From: Gramella sp. AN32
GTDB taxonomy: Bacteria > Bacteroidota > Bacteroidia > Flavobacteriales > Flavobacteriaceae
DNA length: 64,000 bases
Reading direction: 5' to 3'
NCBI RefSeq assembly: GCF_023718305.1
Contig: NZ_QEYO01000003.1
Coordinates: forward strand, 124,001-188,000
Made by a program: the position numbers and the translations under genes. Under the pieces are notes generated by a model, which was given only the letters and a program-made list of their open reading frames with translations, made no database searches and was not told the DNA's origin. Positions 46,519 through 54,765 of this stretch are shown in pieces; position 1 is the stretch's first letter, and every line of letters begins with the position of its first letter.

Positions 46519-47580
46519 ATGAAGAAAAAAAGGATTCTTGTAGCCGCACTTAATTGGGGCCTGGGACATGCAGCACGGTGCATTCCCATTATAAAAGAAT
46601 TACAAAAATTTGATTTTGAGCCAGTATTAGCTTCAGATGGCGCTGCCCTCGAATTATTCAGGCTGGAATTCCCTAAGCTCATTCATATTGAATTACCCAC
46701 TTATGACATTCAATATTCAGAAAAAGGAGAAAATCTTAAATGGAAATTATTAAAAGATTCCCCTAAAATTCTCAAAGCGATCAAAGCCGAAAAAAAGCTT
46801 ACCCGCAAGATTGTAAAAGAGTACGGGATTGAAGGAATAATTTCTGATAATCGCTTTGGGGTTAGAAGTTCAAAACTGAAGAAAAATATTTTTATCACCC
46901 ACCAGTTAAAAGTGTTAAGCGGTAATACTACTTTTTTAAGCAGTTATATCCATCATAAATTTATTGGACAATTTGAGCAATGCTGGATTCCCGATGTTGC
47001 AGATGCAAAAAACCTCAGCGGAATTCTGGGGCATCAGAAGATAAAAGATCCAAACATCAAATATATAGGCATATTGAGCCGGTTTGAAAAGACCAATCCG
47101 CCTGAAGTATTCGATTATCTTATTTTGCTTAGTGGCCCTGAACCGCAGAGAACTTTACTCGAAAATATCCTTTTAAAAGAAATTGAAAATTCAGATAAAA
47201 AGATCCTCTTTATTCGTGGAGTTTTTGACGAATCGAAAACAGCCAGTTCTAACCCGAATGTTTTGATCAAGAACCATCTCTACGGAAGGTTTTTGCAGGA
47301 AGCTCTTAATTCCAGCAAAATAATAATTTCCAGGTCTGGATATTCTACTTTAATGGATCTTTCCCAGTTGGAAAAAAAGGTCTTTTTCATCCCTACGCCC
47401 GGCCAGCCCGAACAGGAATATTTAGCTGAAAGACTAGAGAAAATGGGCGTTGCCCCATTTGTAAAGCAGGACGCATTTAAATTTTCTTTACTGAAAAATG
47501 TTGATAATTATTCAGGTCTAAGGAATTTCAGCAATAGTAGTACCTTCGGGGACCTCTTTTCCTTTTTCCATAGTGAATGA
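46519..47580 (+). CDS. GT-B fold glycosyltransferase, MurG-like (substrate unknown)
   Basis: This 353-residue protein opens with RILVAALNWGLGHAARCIPI, the glycine-rich acceptor loop of MurG-type GT-B enzymes. The C-terminal donor side shows IIISRSGYSTLMDLSQLEKK and FIPTPGQPEQEYLAERLE, the UDP-sugar pocket. It is shorter on family signatures than MurG and probably makes a secondary glycan or glycolipid. A TATATTTG -7-like element ends 4 bp before the ATG. The last 63 bp overlap the convergent histidine kinase gene. Confidence 0.8.
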   Translation: MKKKRILVAALNWGLGHAARCIPIIKELQKFDFEPVLASDGAALELFRLEFPKLIHIELPTYDIQYSEKGENLKWKLLKDSPKILKAIKAEKKLTRKIVKEYGIEGIISDNRFGVRSSKLKKNIFITHQLKVLSGNTTFLSSYIHHKFIGQFEQCWIPDVADAKNLSGILGHQKIKDPNIKYIGILSRFEKTNPPEVFDYLILLSGPEPQRTLLENILLKEIENSDKKILFIRGVFDESKTASSNPNVLIKNHLYGRFLQEALNSSKIIISRSGYSTLMDLSQLEKKVFFIPTPGQPEQEYLAERLEKMGVAPFVKQDAFKFSLLKNVDNYSGLRNFSNSSTFGDLFSFFHSE

Positions 47581-48597
47581 GAATTCACTTCCTATTCCAA
47601 ACACGCTTTCTACATAGATTTTTTCCCCGTGGGCTTCCAGGATATGTTTTACGATGGAAAGTCCTAAACCGGAGCCACCCTCCTTGCGTGAGCCACTTTT
47701 ATCTACTCTGTAAAAGCGCTCAAATAGCCTGGGCAAATTTTCTTTGGCAATACCTTCCCCATTATCGGTTACTCTAATAATCACTTTATTTTTAATAAGA
47801 TTTTCCACGCTAACTTCAGTAGTTCCATCCTTCTTTCCATATTTAATCGAATTTACCACCAGGTTACTTAGCACCTGCTGAATTCGCTCTCTATCACCTC
47901 TTACTAAAACAGGTTTTACATAATCCATATCGAAAGTTAAGGTGATATTTTTCCTGGCCGCTTTCATCTCTAAGAGATCGAAAGAAGATTTTATTAATTC
48001 AATAATATCAAAGGTTTCATAATAAAGGTGCAGCTCACCTACTTCAAGCTTAGTGATCATGTCTAAATCTTTAACGATGTAGATTAACCTTTCCACTCCT
48101 TTACTGGCCCGGGTCAAATATTTTTTCCTCACCGCTTTGTCTTTATAAGCGCCATCCATTAAGGTAAGGATATACCCCTGAACGGTAAATAAAGGCGTTT
48201 TTAATTCGTGGGATACATTGCCCATAAATTCTTTTCGATAGGCTTCCCTAACTTTTAGGGTTTCGATTTCCAGCTTTTTATCTTCCGCGAATTTTTGAAC
48301 TTCACGAGTAAGGCTGGACATATCTGTAGTGATCTGGCTTGGATTCAGATTTTTGGCGTCAAGTAGCGACACATCGTCGTAGATCTTTTTAATCCTTCGA
48401 TAAATAAATCTTTCAACTCTATACTGGATAATAAAAAAGGAAAAAAGGAAACATCCGGTCATAAACATCAGTAGATACAACCAGGAAAATTTCACTTCAA
48501 GATACATGAACAGCGTCATAAAAACTCCCAAAAATATGGTTAAATAAATGGAAGTTCGGGTAGAAAACCTGTATGATCTCTTGAATTTTGCCGACAT
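47518..48597 (-). CDS. PhoR-like sensor histidine kinase
   Basis: This 359-residue kinase has two membrane segments at about 17-33 and 39-58 with almost no periplasmic loop. It has HisKA with MGNVSHELKTPLFTVQG (His130), the N-box QVLSNLVVNSIKYG, and ATP-lid boxes TDNGEGIA and GSGLGLSIVKHI. The short extracytoplasmic part means it probably senses through the membrane or a partner, as PhoR does through the Pst/PhoU system. Its start shares a base with the response regulator stop (TAATG). Function in phosphate response is inferred. Confidence 0.88.
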   Translation of the reverse strand: MSAKFKRSYRFSTRTSIYLTIFLGVFMTLFMYLEVKFSWLYLLMFMTGCFLFSFFIIQYRVERFIYRRIKKIYDDVSLLDAKNLNPSQITTDMSSLTREVQKFAEDKKLEIETLKVREAYRKEFMGNVSHELKTPLFTVQGYILTLMDGAYKDKAVRKKYLTRASKGVERLIYIVKDLDMITKLEVGELHLYYETFDIIELIKSSFDLLEMKAARKNITLTFDMDYVKPVLVRGDRERIQQVLSNLVVNSIKYGKKDGTTEVSVENLIKNKVIIRVTDNGEGIAKENLPRLFERFYRVDKSGSRKEGGSGLGLSIVKHILEAHGEKIYVESVFGIGSEFSFTMEKGKEVPEGTTIAEIP

Positions 48598-49280
48598 TAA
48601 ACTACCAGTTTATAGCCTACGCCTTTTACGGTTTTTATTTTATCGTCTCCAATTTTTTCCCGGAGTTTTCTAATATGAACATCAATAGTTCTTCCCCCAA
48701 CTACAATATCATTTCCCCATACCATATCCAGAATATCTTCACGTTGAAAGACTTTGCCGGGTTTTGAAGCCAGTAAAGAGAGCAATTCAAATTCCTTACG
48801 GGGAAGGGACATTTCATTGCCATTTTGAATCACTTTATATTCTTCCCTGTTTATAATGATATCGCCCAATTTTAGGATTCCGTCAGATGTTTCACTATCT
48901 CGAAAACGTCGCAGTAAAGCTTTTACCTTACTAACCAGGACTTTCGGTTTTATAGGTTTTGTTATATAATCATCAGCCCCCGCATCAAAACCGGCCATTT
49001 GTGAATAATCTTCTCCACGAGCGGTCAGAAATGTAATGATCGTATTTTCCAGATCAGGCATTTTTCTTATTTGTTCACAGGCTTCAATTCCATCCATTTC
49101 AGGCATCATCACATCTAAGATAATCAAATGTGGCTCCCTCTTTTTGGCAAGTTTAACTGCATCTGCACCATTACTTGCCGTGATTACCTGGTAACCTTCC
49201 GAAGAGAGATTATATCCAACAATTTCGAGAATATCCGGTTCGTCATCTACCAATAAAATAAGAATGTCCTTTTTCTTCAT
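48597..49280 (-). CDS. PhoB/OmpR-family response regulator
   Basis: This 227-residue regulator has a receiver domain with ILLVDDEPD (acidic pocket), phosphoacceptor Asp56 in LIILDVMMPEMDG and DYITKPIKP (Lys switch). An OmpR/PhoB winged helix follows (SLPRKEFELLSLLASKPGKV, VGGRTIDVHIRKLREKIG, IKTVKGVGYKLV). It is divergent from the TonB receptor; the gap holds an 11-bp periodic repeat array that fits a PhoB-type binding site. Confidence 0.92.
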   Translation of the reverse strand: MKKKDILILLVDDEPDILEIVGYNLSSEGYQVITASNGADAVKLAKKREPHLIILDVMMPEMDGIEACEQIRKMPDLENTIITFLTARGEDYSQMAGFDAGADDYITKPIKPKVLVSKVKALLRRFRDSETSDGILKLGDIIINREEYKVIQNGNEMSLPRKEFELLSLLASKPGKVFQREDILDMVWGNDIVVGGRTIDVHIRKLREKIGDDKIKTVKGVGYKLVV

Positions 49281-49352: not shown

Positions 49353-49429
49353 TAACATTAAGCTAACACTATAATGACAAAGGATTAATCCTCACCTAAC
49401 ACAGGCTTTACCTACCCGCCGTTAATTTG
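49353..49429 (+). promoter_or_regulatory. Candidate Pho box array and promoter of the TonB-receptor module
   Basis: Seven-base units start at 49353 (TAACATT), 49364 (TAACACT), 49375 (TGACAAA), 49386 (TAATCCT, weak) and 49397 (TAACACA), all exactly 11 bp apart. PhoB and PhoP boxes are direct repeats with an 11-bp period and a TNACA-like core. A -7-like TAATTTG follows at 49423-49429, 19 bp after the last unit, so the last unit occupies the -33 position as expected for an activator site. The array lies between the regulator gene and the receptor gene. Confidence 0.65.
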
Positions 49430-49457
49430 CATCAAGATTTTATAGCAAATAACAAAC

Positions 49458-52253
49458 ATGAAATATTTTATTGCAATTCTTATATTTTTTACAACCATAT
49501 CCCAGGCTCAGGAAACTACCACCGGATCTATCGCAGGAAAGCTTACCGACAAGGAAATGAACGGTGAACCTCTTCCTTTTGCGAATGTGGTGATTAAAGG
49601 CACCTCTAAAGGAACTACATCAGATTTTGACGGATTGTATTCTCTAAATAATCTGGAGCCCGGAACTTATACCATAGTATATAGCTTCGTAGGATATGAG
49701 ACTTTAGAAATTCCTGAAGTAAATGTTGAAGCGGGAAAAGTCACAGAAATTAATACGGAATTAGGCTCCAGTGCTGCCGCTCTTGAAGAAATTGTGATTA
49801 CTACGGTTTCCAGAAAAGATTCACAGGTTGCTTTATTAATAGAACAAAAAAATTCAATTGAAATTAAGGAAAGTATTGGAGCCCAGGAACTGGCAAAATT
49901 AGGAGTTTCTGATGTTGGTACGGCGACCACTAAGATTTCAGGAGTAACCAGTAGTGAAGCATCGGGGGATATTTTTGTGCGTGGGCTGGGAGACCGCTAT
50001 TTGTACAGTACCATGAATGGTCTTCCTATCCCTTCAGACGATGTGGAAAGAAAAAATATTGATCTGGGACTTTTTCCAACCCGCGTTATTCAGAATGTGA
50101 GTATTAATAAAACCTTTTCCCCAGAAACATCTGCCGATCAGGCTTCAGGGAATATCGATATTATTTCCAGGGAATTAAGAGGTAAAGATGAATTGGATCT
50201 TGGGTTAAGAATTGGTGTAAATACCAATGCCGCTGGGGAATTCAGCAATTTTAAAGTTTCTCCTAACCAGGATGATGTCTATTTTGGTTTTTATGATCAA
50301 AAAGTTCCAACTGAATATTCCTTAAATAATCAAACCTGGAATACCAAAAAAGATCCTTTTCCCATCAACCGCACCTATTCTTTAACTGCCGGAAAAGAAT
50401 TTGGAAAGCTTCGAACTTTACTTACCGCCTCACAATCGGTAAAATTTGAATATAATCAGGGAGTTTTCAGAAATTACAAAAGTAATGACCTGGAAGATGA
50501 ATTTACCGATGCTACCAATTTTTCCAAAACTGATAATACCACGGCCCTTATAGATCTTGGATTTGAGATCGATAACAATAATCGTTTAAAAGCAACGAGT
50601 CTTTTCATCAACAAATTAACTGATGAGGTTTTTGAAGCCGGTAGAAATGGCGAAGGCGTTGTTTTTGAAGAAACCAATACCGCGGAAGATTTTAATCAGT
50701 TCGTGCGTGATCAGAACATCAAGCAAACCCGTCTTTGGGTAAATCAGTTACATGGTGACCACTCTTTTTTTGATGGAAAAAATGAGCTGGATTGGGGAGT
50801 TGGATACAATTTGGTAAATGCCGATGAGCCAAACCGAATTCGAAATGAGGTGAATATAAGTCCTACGTTACCAATTCAACTGGGTAGAACGGGTGGATAT
50901 CAACAAAGAAAATCAACACAAAAAATTGATGATACCGAGTTAAATGCCTTGCTTAACAACCGCTATAATTTCTTAACTGACGAGGAGGATTCTGAGAAGA
51001 AAGTTTTTGTTGAAGTTGGAGGTAATTATCGAAAAAAAGACAGGGATTTTATATCTCAATTCTTCGGAGCTGATGAAAATCAATTCAACACAGTGAATCC
51101 CACTTCTATTGATGATCTTTCCAGTGTTTTCACCACTGCTAACTTTAATTCCAGGAGATTAAGCTTTAACCAACTTAGCCCAGATCTTTATATTGGAACT
51201 TTAAAATCGTATAGCGGTTATGCATTCTTCAACTACGGAACTGAAAAATTTAATATCAATATTGGAGGCAGATATCAAAACGATGATCTGCATGTAGTTT
51301 TTGATGTAAATAACTACCCCGTAAACCTTCCGAATTTCGTTTATAAGAATTACGAGAATATTTATCCCGCGGCTAACTTGAAATTTTCCCCAACAAAAAA
51401 TTCAAATATTAGGTTAGCTGCCAGTAAAACGATCACCCTGCCAGAGTTTAAAGAAGTAGCTCCATTTGAGTATGTTTCCCAAACAGGACAAGTGACGCGT
51501 GGCAACCCAAATCTGGAAGCTTCCAACAACTTAAATTTTGACCTTAAATATGAAATTTTCCCAAGTTCAGGAGAGCTAATTTCATTAACAGGTTTCTATA
51601 AGAATATTAAAGACCCTATCAATAAAGTACAGGAAAGGGGTGCTGCCGGTGTGTTTTCTTATTTCAACGCCGGAGAAGAAGCAAATATTTATGGCCTTGA
51701 ATTAGAAGCCAGAATGGACGTTTATGAAAATGAAGCGCCGGAAGGATTTGATGTGGCTGTTTCTGGAAACGTTTCCAGAATGTGGCACAAACAGGATCTT
51801 AAAAATGTAAATGATGCCAATGGCAACTTCGTAAGAACCTTTAGATATAATAACAAAAAAGAGATTGGATTACAGGGGGCTTCCGACTGGATTTTTAATG
51901 CATCTGCCAATATTTCTACGGAAACCGATAATCCCTTTAGAGCAACCTTAGTTGGAGCTTATGCTTCAGACAAAATTTATGCTTTGGGAGCACCTGAAAC
52001 TCAAAACCAAACCAACGTTTTCTATAATGACGAAATCGTAGAAAAAGGATTTGTCACGCTGGATTTAATTATGGCCAAGGAACTTAGTGAAAACTGGGTT
52101 CTTGAATTCCGCGGGCAGAATTTGCTTAATCCTGAAATCGAAAGATATCAGGCGATTAGACCTACCTCCGGAAATGCAGGAGAAACCAACCAAACAGTTA
52201 GAAGTTACACCAGGGGCGCTGTCTTAAGTCTTGGGGTGAGCTATTCTTTCTAA
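49458..52253 (+). CDS. TonB-dependent outer-membrane receptor
   Basis: This 931-residue receptor has a signal peptide (IAILIFFTTISQAQ), a CarboxypepD_reg-like N-terminal domain at about 25-105 (GKLTDKEMNGEPLPFANVV, GTSKGTTSDFDGLYSL), a plug domain (SGDIFVRGLGDRYLYSTMNG, then SINKTFSPETSADQASGNI) and a beta-barrel to the C-terminal LSLGVSYSF. No SusD partner follows, which argues against a glycan system. Next comes a repeat lipoprotein. The substrate is unknown; with the phosphate-type regulator it may be phosphate, polyphosphate or an organophosphate. Confidence 0.92.
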   Translation: MKYFIAILIFFTTISQAQETTTGSIAGKLTDKEMNGEPLPFANVVIKGTSKGTTSDFDGLYSLNNLEPGTYTIVYSFVGYETLEIPEVNVEAGKVTEINTELGSSAAALEEIVITTVSRKDSQVALLIEQKNSIEIKESIGAQELAKLGVSDVGTATTKISGVTSSEASGDIFVRGLGDRYLYSTMNGLPIPSDDVERKNIDLGLFPTRVIQNVSINKTFSPETSADQASGNIDIISRELRGKDELDLGLRIGVNTNAAGEFSNFKVSPNQDDVYFGFYDQKVPTEYSLNNQTWNTKKDPFPINRTYSLTAGKEFGKLRTLLTASQSVKFEYNQGVFRNYKSNDLEDEFTDATNFSKTDNTTALIDLGFEIDNNNRLKATSLFINKLTDEVFEAGRNGEGVVFEETNTAEDFNQFVRDQNIKQTRLWVNQLHGDHSFFDGKNELDWGVGYNLVNADEPNRIRNEVNISPTLPIQLGRTGGYQQRKSTQKIDDTELNALLNNRYNFLTDEEDSEKKVFVEVGGNYRKKDRDFISQFFGADENQFNTVNPTSIDDLSSVFTTANFNSRRLSFNQLSPDLYIGTLKSYSGYAFFNYGTEKFNINIGGRYQNDDLHVVFDVNNYPVNLPNFVYKNYENIYPAANLKFSPTKNSNIRLAASKTITLPEFKEVAPFEYVSQTGQVTRGNPNLEASNNLNFDLKYEIFPSSGELISLTGFYKNIKDPINKVQERGAAGVFSYFNAGEEANIYGLELEARMDVYENEAPEGFDVAVSGNVSRMWHKQDLKNVNDANGNFVRTFRYNNKKEIGLQGASDWIFNASANISTETDNPFRATLVGAYASDKIYALGAPETQNQTNVFYNDEIVEKGFVTLDLIMAKELSENWVLEFRGQNLLNPEIERYQAIRPTSGNAGETNQTVRSYTRGAVLSLGVSYSF

Positions 52254-52300: not shown

Positions 52301-54277
52301 ATGAAAACAAGATTTAAAAGTATGCTGACTCTTGCTGCTGTTGCGATTTTTGCAACTTCCTGTAGCAATGACGAATTGGTGATCGAACCAATAGATCCCA
52401 CGAATTCCGGGGGCAATCCCACGGGGACCGAACTAAATGGTAGTGTGACAGAAGACGTGACTTTAGAGTCTTCCCAATCGTATAGCCTAACAGGGGTATA
52501 TTCCATCGAATCTGGAGCTACGCTAACTATTCCTGCCGGAACTGAAATAGTTGCTGATGCTGATCTGGATCAAAGTGATGCGACCAACGTTTATATCGTG
52601 ATTCAACAAGGAGCCAAAATTAAGATTCAGGGAACCTCTTCCGCACCGGTAATTATGAGATCTGCCAATGGGAACTCCGGAAGTTGGGGTGGTTTGATCA
52701 TCGCAGGGAATGCTAATACTACTGCCGGTTCTGGTGCAACTGCTGAAGTTGGTGGAATTATCTATGGTGGGAGTGACGATACTGATAATTCAGGATCCAT
52801 CAATTACCTGATTTTGTCTGATGCCGGTGCCCAAATCAATGCGGAATCTCAATTTAACGGACTTTCACTTTATGCCGTAGGTTCAGGAACTTCTATCAAG
52901 AATGTTGCTTTAATTAATGGAGCTGATGACGGGGTGGAATTTTTCGGTGGATCTGTTTCAGCTTCCAATATGTATCTTGAAAATAACGAAGATGATGCAA
53001 TTGACTGGACTGAAGGTTGGAGCGGAACTGTAAACAATGCTTACATTCTTCATACGATTGGCAACTTCTCAACTGCTCTGGAAGGAGATGGGGAAGACAA
53101 CAGTCCAAAATTCAATAATTTAACCGCTGTGTCTACTACCGGTGGTACAGCTTTACAATTCAAGAAACAATCTGGAGCAATTATTACCGGTCTTTCTTTA
53201 TCAGGTTATGACACTTCAATTGAATTGACTGAAGAAACCAGAACTGATGTTTCCAATATCGAAGTAGAAGGAGCCAATGCAGATCTTTCTAAATCCTATT
53301 CTGGTGCTGCTTCTGTAGATGTCTCTTTATTTAATTGGATTAGCAACAGAGGCCAGGTTGCCATTCTTCCAAATATAATTGAAAGCAACCTAACTCTGGA
53401 TGCAGGTACCGAGTATGTGATTTCAGGAGTTGTATCTGTAAACGATGGAGCAAGCTTAACTATTCCTGCCGGAACAACCATCACCGCACGCAGTGATGCT
53501 GAAAATGAATCTACCAGTATTTATATTGTAGTTCAAAAGGGTGGTATGATCAATATTAAGGGAACTGAAAATAATCCCGTAATTATGGAATCTACTTCCG
53601 GGACTCCTGGAAGCTGGGGCGGTTTGGTCATTGCCGGGAATGCTGAAACTACTGCCGGGGCGAATGCAACTGCCGAAGTTGGGGGTATTATTTATGGTGG
53701 AAATGACAGTGAAGACAATTCAGGTGCTATCTCTTACCTCATCATTAAGGATGCAGGAGCGCAAATAAATGCGGAATCTCAATACAATGGATTATCCTTA
53801 TATGCAGTAGGATCTGGTACTACTATTGAAAACGTAGCTATTCTTAATGGAGCTGATGATGGTGTGGAATTCTTCGGCGGATCTGTTTCTGTGACTAACT
53901 TCTATCTGGAGAACAATGAAGACGATGCAGTAGACTGGACTGAAGGTTGGAATGGCACTATTACTAATACTTATGTAAAACATACGATCCCTAATTTTTC
54001 AACGGCGGTTGAAGCAGATGGTGAAAACAGAAATCCACGAATTGTTAATTTTACCGCTGTATCCACTACAGGAGGCACCGCTTTACAATTCAAAAAACAA
54101 TCTGGAGCGACCATTACCGGTATTTCTTTAAGCGGGTATGACACTGTATTAGATATTACAGAAGAAACTAGAACTGACCTTAGCGGAATTCAAATTGAGG
54201 GAATTGGAGCTACTCTGGATGCCACTTATAATACTGAAGCCACCGTAGATGTCAATATTTTCAATTGGGTGAATTAA
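52301..54277 (+). CDS. Surface or periplasmic lipoprotein made of two near-identical halves
   Basis: This 658-residue protein has a lipobox, AIFATS before Cys21. After a linker, residues about 44-347 and 352-658 are two tandem copies of the same roughly 305-residue unit. Matching stretches include SWGGLIIAGNA with SWGGLVIAGNA, ATAEVGGIIYGG, DAGAQINAESQ, NGADDGVEFFGGSVS, YLENNEDDA and STTGGTALQFKKQSGA. Gly/Asn-rich, short strands suggest a right-handed parallel beta-helix. The acidic patches (EDDAIDWTEGW) might bind cations. I know no function. It lies 47 bp after the receptor gene, in one transcript, ending at the terminator at 54306. Confidence 0.85.
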   Translation: MKTRFKSMLTLAAVAIFATSCSNDELVIEPIDPTNSGGNPTGTELNGSVTEDVTLESSQSYSLTGVYSIESGATLTIPAGTEIVADADLDQSDATNVYIVIQQGAKIKIQGTSSAPVIMRSANGNSGSWGGLIIAGNANTTAGSGATAEVGGIIYGGSDDTDNSGSINYLILSDAGAQINAESQFNGLSLYAVGSGTSIKNVALINGADDGVEFFGGSVSASNMYLENNEDDAIDWTEGWSGTVNNAYILHTIGNFSTALEGDGEDNSPKFNNLTAVSTTGGTALQFKKQSGAIITGLSLSGYDTSIELTEETRTDVSNIEVEGANADLSKSYSGAASVDVSLFNWISNRGQVAILPNIIESNLTLDAGTEYVISGVVSVNDGASLTIPAGTTITARSDAENESTSIYIVVQKGGMINIKGTENNPVIMESTSGTPGSWGGLVIAGNAETTAGANATAEVGGIIYGGNDSEDNSGAISYLIIKDAGAQINAESQYNGLSLYAVGSGTTIENVAILNGADDGVEFFGGSVSVTNFYLENNEDDAVDWTEGWNGTITNTYVKHTIPNFSTAVEADGENRNPRIVNFTAVSTTGGTALQFKKQSGATITGISLSGYDTVLDITEETRTDLSGIQIEGIGATLDATYNTEATVDVNIFNWVN

Positions 54278-54426: not shown

Positions 54427-54765
54427 ATGAAGAAAAGATACTTTTTGGTCTTCTTATTGTTTGGTTTCCTTGCTTTTGCCTCTCCGGCCATTGCACAGGA
54501 ATCAAATCCTTCTGCTCTAAGAACAGAGCGTCCAATTGACGGGCTTTCTATTTATCCCAATCCGGTAACTGGTGGGAAAGTTTATATTTCTACTACTCTC
54601 AACAAAGAAAAAAAGATCGAGATCTTTAATATTTTGGGCAAACCGGTTCAAAAAACTCAGTTAAGGGGGAGGGAATTAGATGTTTCCACACTTACACCGG
54701 GAATTTATATTTTAAAGATTGAAGAAGGTAGTTCCAGGGCAACTAAAAAACTGATCGTAAAATAA
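54427..54765 (+). CDS. Small secreted protein consisting mainly of a T9SS type A sorting domain
   Basis: This 112-residue protein has a signal peptide (YFLVFLLFGFLAFASPAIA) and then about 75 residues that are a type A C-terminal sorting domain: LSIYPNPVTGGKVYISTT, IEIFNILGKPVQKTQL and the end LTPGIYILKIEEGSSRATKK. There is hardly any cargo (about 15 residues) before the domain. Normally such domains end large secreted enzymes. It may be a surface-attached peptide in its own right or a remnant. It follows the receptor module and has its own terminator. Confidence 0.85.
   Translation: MKKRYFLVFLLFGFLAFASPAIAQESNPSALRTERPIDGLSIYPNPVTGGKVYISTTLNKEKKIEIFNILGKPVQKTQLRGRELDVSTLTPGIYILKIEEGSSRATKKLIVK

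Follow-up and report, generated by a model that had tools for sequence, protein, structure and literature searches.

How the gene for a TonB-dependent receptor is controlled, when it stands divergent from a gene for a PhoB-type regulator, is the question raised by a 64,000-nucleotide stretch of DNA from Gramella sp. AN32 (the window). A first-pass annotation had pointed to five 7-mers in 11-bp phase upstream of the receptor gene, had read them as a candidate Pho box, and had proposed that the adjacent regulator controls the promoter. All five words are present exactly where it had placed them: direct reading of the sequence gives TAACATT at 49353, TAACACT at 49364, TGACAAA at 49375, TAATCCT at 49386, and TAACACA at 49397, and the phase across them is exact. 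The array, however, has six units rather than five, as TTACCTA at 49408 extends the 11-bp phase and had been overlooked. The fourth unit is a weak TNACA word, and TAAT or TAAC is found at that place in relatives too. The array consists of six tandem direct repeats in exact phase, a phase that is kept in relatives, and it is very probably the landing site of the neighboring phosphate-starvation regulator. The features of the locus are collected in Table 1.

Table 1. Array, promoter element, and neighboring genes in the window
Feature	Position	Strand	Basis
Glycosyltransferase (PF04101), lacking an upstream array; positional counterpart of Fjoh_0541	46519..47580	+	
PhoR-type histidine kinase (HisKA + HATPase_c)	47518..48597	-	domains; NCBIfam
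PhoB-type response regulator (Response_reg + Trans_reg_C), divergent from the receptor gene	48597..49280	-	domains; NCBIfam
Predicted operator, six 11-bp direct-repeat units	49353..49418	+	sequence and comparison
-7 promoter element TTAATTTG, TAnnTTTG with one mismatch	49422..49429	+	sequence
TonB-dependent receptor (CarboxypepD_reg, plug, OMP_b-brl_3), gene behind the array	49458..52253	+	
Lipoprotein, two similar halves; matches F. johnsoniae "FII" in position	52301..54277	+	
112-aa protein, little beyond a signal peptide and a T9SS type A sorting domain (PF18962)	54427..54765	+	

The array is joined to a promoter element at a fixed distance. The -7-like TAATTTG that had been noted 19 bp past the fifth unit is confirmed at 49423 to 49429, the first base of unit 6 lies 18 nt from the first T of its TTTG (49426), and TTTG is invariant in 55 aligned promoters. 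A -7 box is located at -12 to -5 (PMC9723704), by which transcription would start near 49434, and the array would then extend from about -81 to about -16. No TTG is present at 49398 to 49406, where a -33 element would sit, and units 5 and 6 cover that region. E. coli PhoB takes over the upstream promoter contact, and an array that lies over the -33 region in the absence of a TTG would have the geometry of such an activator. What is observed for replacement of the -35/-33 contact by the regulator is the fixed 18-nt distance and the lack of a TTG at -33; the transcription start is a prediction.

The array is conserved upstream of receptor relatives in most genera examined. We assembled 111 upstream regions, namely, the window, 21 of 22 loci from named contigs (the short match L044 was dropped), 29 loci from a family survey, and 60 fetched stretches. 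The family survey covered 149 genomes of Flavobacteriaceae, one per genus, of which 99 had a receptor match at E <= 1e-60; the nine left outside the set (G016, G027, G039, G042, G043, G048, G069, G119, and G121) were all weak matches, with E values of 1e-61 to 1e-68. When the 111 regions were compared with themselves between -130 and -25, identity peaked at lags of 11 (0.393), 22 (0.353), and 33 (0.362) and ranged from 0.248 to 0.315 at the remaining lags from 5 to 35. No peak was seen at lag 11 (0.287) or 22 (0.267) in the stretch 200 bp further up, from -330 to -225 (110 regions). A gapless model fitted to the 111 regions contained six TAACATT-like units and then TTTCTTTGC at a fixed distance, with the C strongly kept in units 1, 2, 5, and 6 and with units 3 and 4 weaker. 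In that model, 97 of the 111 regions scored above 20 bits on the model's own fitting set, and the 14 lowest were counted as misses (L037, L039 to L042, L104, L117, L120, L125, L126, L129, and L131 to L133).

Because the count of 97 comes from the fitting set, a model-free count of phase is the test to trust. Among 90 receptor promoters, one per genus, with a usable TTTG in 85, 362 of 404 T[AT]AC words fell in a single one of the eleven phases, standing 18, 29, 40, 51, 62, and 73 nt from the TTTG of the -7 element. Only 12 T[AT]AC words were found across 41 further window promoters, and they had no preferred phase. The string T[ATC]AC-N14-TTTG was present in 69 of the 90 receptor promoters, in 20 of 30 porin promoters (see below), and in none of the 41 others. 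Moreover, the words stay constant in the aligned promoters while the four bases between them vary. We note that L061 carries an array closely like that of the window in front of a receptor that is only 39% identical, which may mean that regulatory DNA is retained even as the gene behind it diverges or is replaced. We also note that the arrays of L024 (Salinimicrobium catena) and L046 (a family genome) are identical in sequence; the two are probably the same species in both collections.

The Gramella sp. AN32 genome was also scanned for the element. The six-unit model R1 found one strong site, that of the receptor (E 2.8e-14), and no second strong six-unit site; its 12 lower matches (E 0.157 or worse) were mostly at unrelated genes, the exception being a pair with E values of 1.2 and 1.38 that both precede a phosphate-selective porin gene, the second one upstream of the gene at about 1500 to 1560 of L145. 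The three-unit model R2, the training set of which included the porin site of this genome, ranked the porin first (E 1e-6), a site before asnS second (E 2.3e-4), and the receptor third (E 0.0185), with all other matches at E 0.07 or worse. The asnS site (C22:362854-362888, minus strand; L253) has the units TAACATTAAGT TTACATT and lies between asnS and the gene for a 121-aa secreted protein; no -7 element stands at 18 nt from it, and we treat it as doubtful. Only two clean promoter sites were found in this genome, those of the receptor and the porin. A model trained on the receptor promoters gave 66.9 bits to the receptor, 22.7 bits to the porin, and at most 5.1 bits to any of the 41 other window promoters. 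No array was found before the glycosyltransferase gene when the window promoters were scored, or at the second PHO4 gene of the genome.

The element also stands before phosphate-supply genes. PhoU (PF01895), the presence of which would mark a Pst/PhoU-coupled Pho system, gave no match in the Gramella sp. AN32 genome and matches in 13 of 14 control genomes; alkaline phosphatase (PF00245) likewise was not found in the genome. Since no PhoU was found, porin and PHO4 genes were taken as the test in place of pst. The porin of this genome (401 aa; PF07396, 54.2 bits against a cut-off of 20.9) is encoded 57 bp upstream of a PHO4/Pit phosphate transporter gene, and three units in 11-bp phase stand in its promoter: TAACCCG, AAACATT, and, 18 nt before TTTG, TAATCTT. 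Porin relatives occur in 86 genomes, and we examined the promoters from the best 30 of these genomes, none of which had been used in model training. Under the receptor-trained model, dinucleotide shuffles had a 99th percentile of 7.4 bits, and the top score among 600 of them was 12.8 bits; 28 of the 30 promoters exceeded the former value and 27 the latter. L206 and L211 were misses, and L210 fell between the two thresholds. The first-pass annotation had proposed to look for conservation before receptor relatives and for the motif before other phosphate genes, and in both places its reading as a Pho box found support, in the latter through a three-unit version at the same 18-nt distance.

A scan of the 149 family genomes found a site at E <= 0.01 in at least 115, many being training sequences, and many of the best matches were sequences used to build R1. 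Forty further loci were read as a sample, chosen from among the matches listed. A porin and/or Pit gene lay behind the site in 19 of these, a lipoprotein gene with a receptor gene in 12, and only a receptor-like or small CarboxypepD_reg reading frame in 3, and 6 had no recognized target (L156, L159, L160, L162, L165, and L176), although the sites of L160 and L176 precede genes for secreted proteins. We note that a small secreted protein of 118 to 136 aa, with little beyond one CarboxypepD_reg domain and resembling the receptor's N-terminal domain, is encoded first in 9 of the 19 porin and/or Pit operons (L149, L151, L152, L155, L158, L164, L168, L169, and L170; one of the nine was checked against Pfam).

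Which protein binds the array is suggested by the neighboring genes. The best NCBIfam match of the adjacent regulator is TIGR02154 PhoB (222 bits, under the cut-off of 296.2), and the other of its two best families is NF053854 (207.8 bits, under the cut-off of 270). The genome encodes six OmpR-type regulators, of which only that of the window has PhoB as its best match; the other five reach 127 to 166 bits for the PhoB model, and three of them best match RprY and two PmrA. The kinase best matches PnpS (238 bits) and PhoR (TIGR02966; 229.3 bits against a cut-off of 334.2), both below cut-off, and its N terminus is short, with no PAS domain found. Thus, neither protein reaches the curated cut-off of the PhoB or PhoR equivalog. 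The regulator gene is the divergent neighbor in 25 of the 111 regions, window included, most of which reach only 1.5 kb upstream. Relatives of the regulator are present in 142 of the 149 family genomes, so co-occurrence with the array tests little; two genomes (G048 and G146) have an array site and no regulator match.

The regulator gene itself is preceded by a different arrangement of the same word. A forward array before phoB was sought and not found; the forward pair occurred in 2 of 30 upstream stretches of 140 bp, and other spacings from 3 to 13 gave three or fewer each. A reverse 11-bp pair, GTTA-N7-GTTA, was present instead in 24 of the 30, and in 20 of the 25 that lack a divergent receptor array. 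The reverse two-unit site in relatives fits, and suggests, autoregulation.

The gene order at the locus recalls the phoBR cluster of F. johnsoniae. That cluster, Fjoh_0541-0549, encodes a glycosyltransferase, OprP, PhoR, PhoB, a receptor, the lipoprotein FII, and others, and it shares with the window, when genes are equated by order and domains, the glycosyltransferase, PhoR, PhoB, a receptor with pf07715, pf13715, and pf14905, and then the lipoprotein (PUSIV; PMC8115612). Upon Pi depletion, the fold changes (FC), which we read as log2 from the threshold given in the text, were 8.02 for the receptor Fjoh_0545, 9.91 for the lipoprotein, 5.42 for the glycosyltransferase, and 3.06 for PhoB; those of PhoR (0.76) and of OprP beside phoBR (-1.3) were not significant (PMC8115612). 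The two loci differ in that F. johnsoniae has the OprP gene beside phoR (PMC8115612), whereas the window has none there and the porin gene lies with Pit on another contig. The gene pstS was reported in 26 of 102 Flavobacterium strains (PMC8115612). "Pho box," "promoter," and "mutant" each have no occurrence in the main text of PMC8115612. The lipoprotein gene adjoins the receptor gene in 21 of the 22 loci from named contigs, and the lipoprotein of the window matches no Pfam model above its cut-off. We note that proteins of about 110 aa with a signal peptide and the T9SS tail "YPNPV" are encoded after the lipoprotein gene in the window and divergent from phoB in 10 of 30 genomes, where they were recognized by eye (L225, L227, L239, L242, L243, L245, L246, L248, L249, and L251).

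The repeats might have arisen by chance or might serve the DNA itself. The exact string TNACA-N6-TNACA-N6-TNACA occurs once in the 4.6-Mb genome, at this array, but with up to one mismatch it occurs 11 times, against 18 for a reversed control, and is not enriched. As the simple triple is no rarer than expected by chance, the pattern in a single genome is unpersuasive, and it is the comparison that makes the case: conservation over genera and the phase count (362 of 404) refute chance periodicity unless all loci share one recent origin, and we give it next to no credence. Intrinsic curvature, by which 11-bp phasing of A/T-rich words would aid the promoter with no specific protein, might be expected of units that are TAA rich and helically phased. 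The C of TAAC, however, is among the most conserved positions, and the same word recurs in shorter arrays before other phosphate genes, such that we consider curvature extremely improbable as the explanation.

Alternatively, the array might be bound by another protein or might answer another signal. Tandem 11-bp sites are common in the OmpR family, and the five other regulators of the genome, RprY-like or PmrA-like, offer candidates for an operator to which PhoB binds weakly or not at all. Moreover, the motif of Riemerella PhoP is most like that of ArcA (PMC9603813). An operator of this kind seems unlikely, however, as the array adjoins a PhoB-type gene in the window and in 24 further regions, it precedes phosphate genes elsewhere, and the reverse pair precedes phoB. 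It could also be that the adjacent regulator binds and that its signal is not mainly phosphate: in Riemerella, the PhoP targets were interpreted as membrane and aerotolerance genes and included few for phosphate (PMC9603813), the N terminus of the kinase is short and no PAS domain was detected, and no PhoU was found in the genome. Against this stand the porin-Pit targets and the induction of the F. johnsoniae counterparts by Pi only (PMC8115612), and we hold a signal other than phosphate to be very unlikely.

We consider it highly likely that the array is a three-dimer PhoB-type operator, a candidate Pho box of the Flavobacteriaceae that lies over the -33 region and activates the receptor and lipoprotein genes. 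The phosphorylated regulator would occupy the 11-bp repeats head to tail; the simplest arrangement, suggested by the six units, would be three dimers, one each on units 1-2, 3-4, and 5-6. The dimer on units 5 and 6 would sit at the place of the -33 element and there recruit housekeeping RNA polymerase to the -7 element, and phosphate scarcity would thereby switch on the two genes in Gramella sp. AN32. The three-unit site at the same 18-nt distance would drive the porin-Pit pair, and in relatives the reverse site would allow the regulator to act on its own gene. Several observations count against a PhoB operator. The local glycosyltransferase gene has no array, although its F. johnsoniae counterpart is Pi induced, and OprP beside phoBR was not induced there (FC -1.3; PMC8115612). 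Further, R1 finds the porin site only at E values of about 1.2 to 1.4, R2 ranks the asnS site, without a proper -7 element, above the receptor, and TNACA triples are not enriched. Finally, the regulator and kinase score below the curated PhoB and PhoR cut-offs, no more than 25 of the 111 regions have the regulator gene as divergent neighbor, and G048 and G146 have no regulator match.

The array follows the ordinary principle of a Pho box, although it is longer than usual and its placement is strict. The PhoP box of Bacillus has the core TTAACA. Streptomyces PhoP boxes have the core GTTCACC and form "complex operators" (PMC4415409). Both kinds are multi-unit, 11-bp-phased direct repeats like the array, but they belong to other phyla with other polymerase partners. 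In E. coli, PhoB binds in tandem, head to tail, on the 11-nt units of the PHO box, and the consensus of the box varies between species (PMC4415409). The array resembles the E. coli box in its tandem 11-nt direct repeats, with seven better and four less conserved bases, before phosphate-starvation genes, and several PHO boxes in tandem are known for E. coli PhoB and its relatives (PMC4415409). Unlike the E. coli box, the core is TAACATT and not CTGTCAT, six units stand at a nearly fixed place, and the promoter has a Bacteroidota -7 box rather than a -10. Predicted Pho boxes have also been described near plcP in marine isolates (PMC4796936).

The array also resembles the site of a regulator from the Flavobacteriales. 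PhoP of Riemerella anatipestifer gave the conserved motif TTTAACA in DAP-seq, with electrophoretic mobility shift assays (EMSA) of eight sites, and in EMSA it bound upstream of its own operon, as autoregulation in vitro, and upstream of a TonB-dependent receptor gene (PMC9603813). Both systems have a Flavobacteriales regulator of the PhoP/PhoB type, and TTTAACA, the most conserved bases of the Riemerella site, is a core related to that of the array (PMC9603813). The Riemerella site was likened to that of ArcA and linked with aerotolerance and virulence, and in the parts of that paper drawn on here it is not presented as an 11-bp array or Pho box (PMC9603813). A published 11-bp Pho box for the Flavobacteriaceae was not found in the literature surveyed, with most subscription journals outside its scope. 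Because the TTTAACA core of a related regulator points the same way, the array adds to a known kind of element.

Omics studies have brought to light Pi-induced TonB receptors and lipoproteins in the Flavobacteriaceae, and no defined promoter element for them was found in the literature surveyed. Perhaps, and with somewhat less than an even chance in our estimate, the array represents a family-wide Pho box of the Flavobacteriaceae, with a fixed geometry of three dimers at receptor-lipoprotein genes and one to two at porin-Pit genes, that runs a PhoU-free regulon of outer-membrane scavenging and Pit uptake. If so, phosphate must reach the PhoR-type kinase as a signal along a path different from Pst-PhoU, and how the kinase senses it in a genome without detectable PhoU is the question that the array raises. 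Members of the regulon would be predictable from sequence as receptor-lipoprotein pairs, porin-Pit pairs, and the small CarboxypepD_reg protein. Ultimately, the array offers a concrete operator sequence and a spacing rule for phosphate control in the Flavobacteriaceae, which are major players in the phosphorus cycle of seas and soils.
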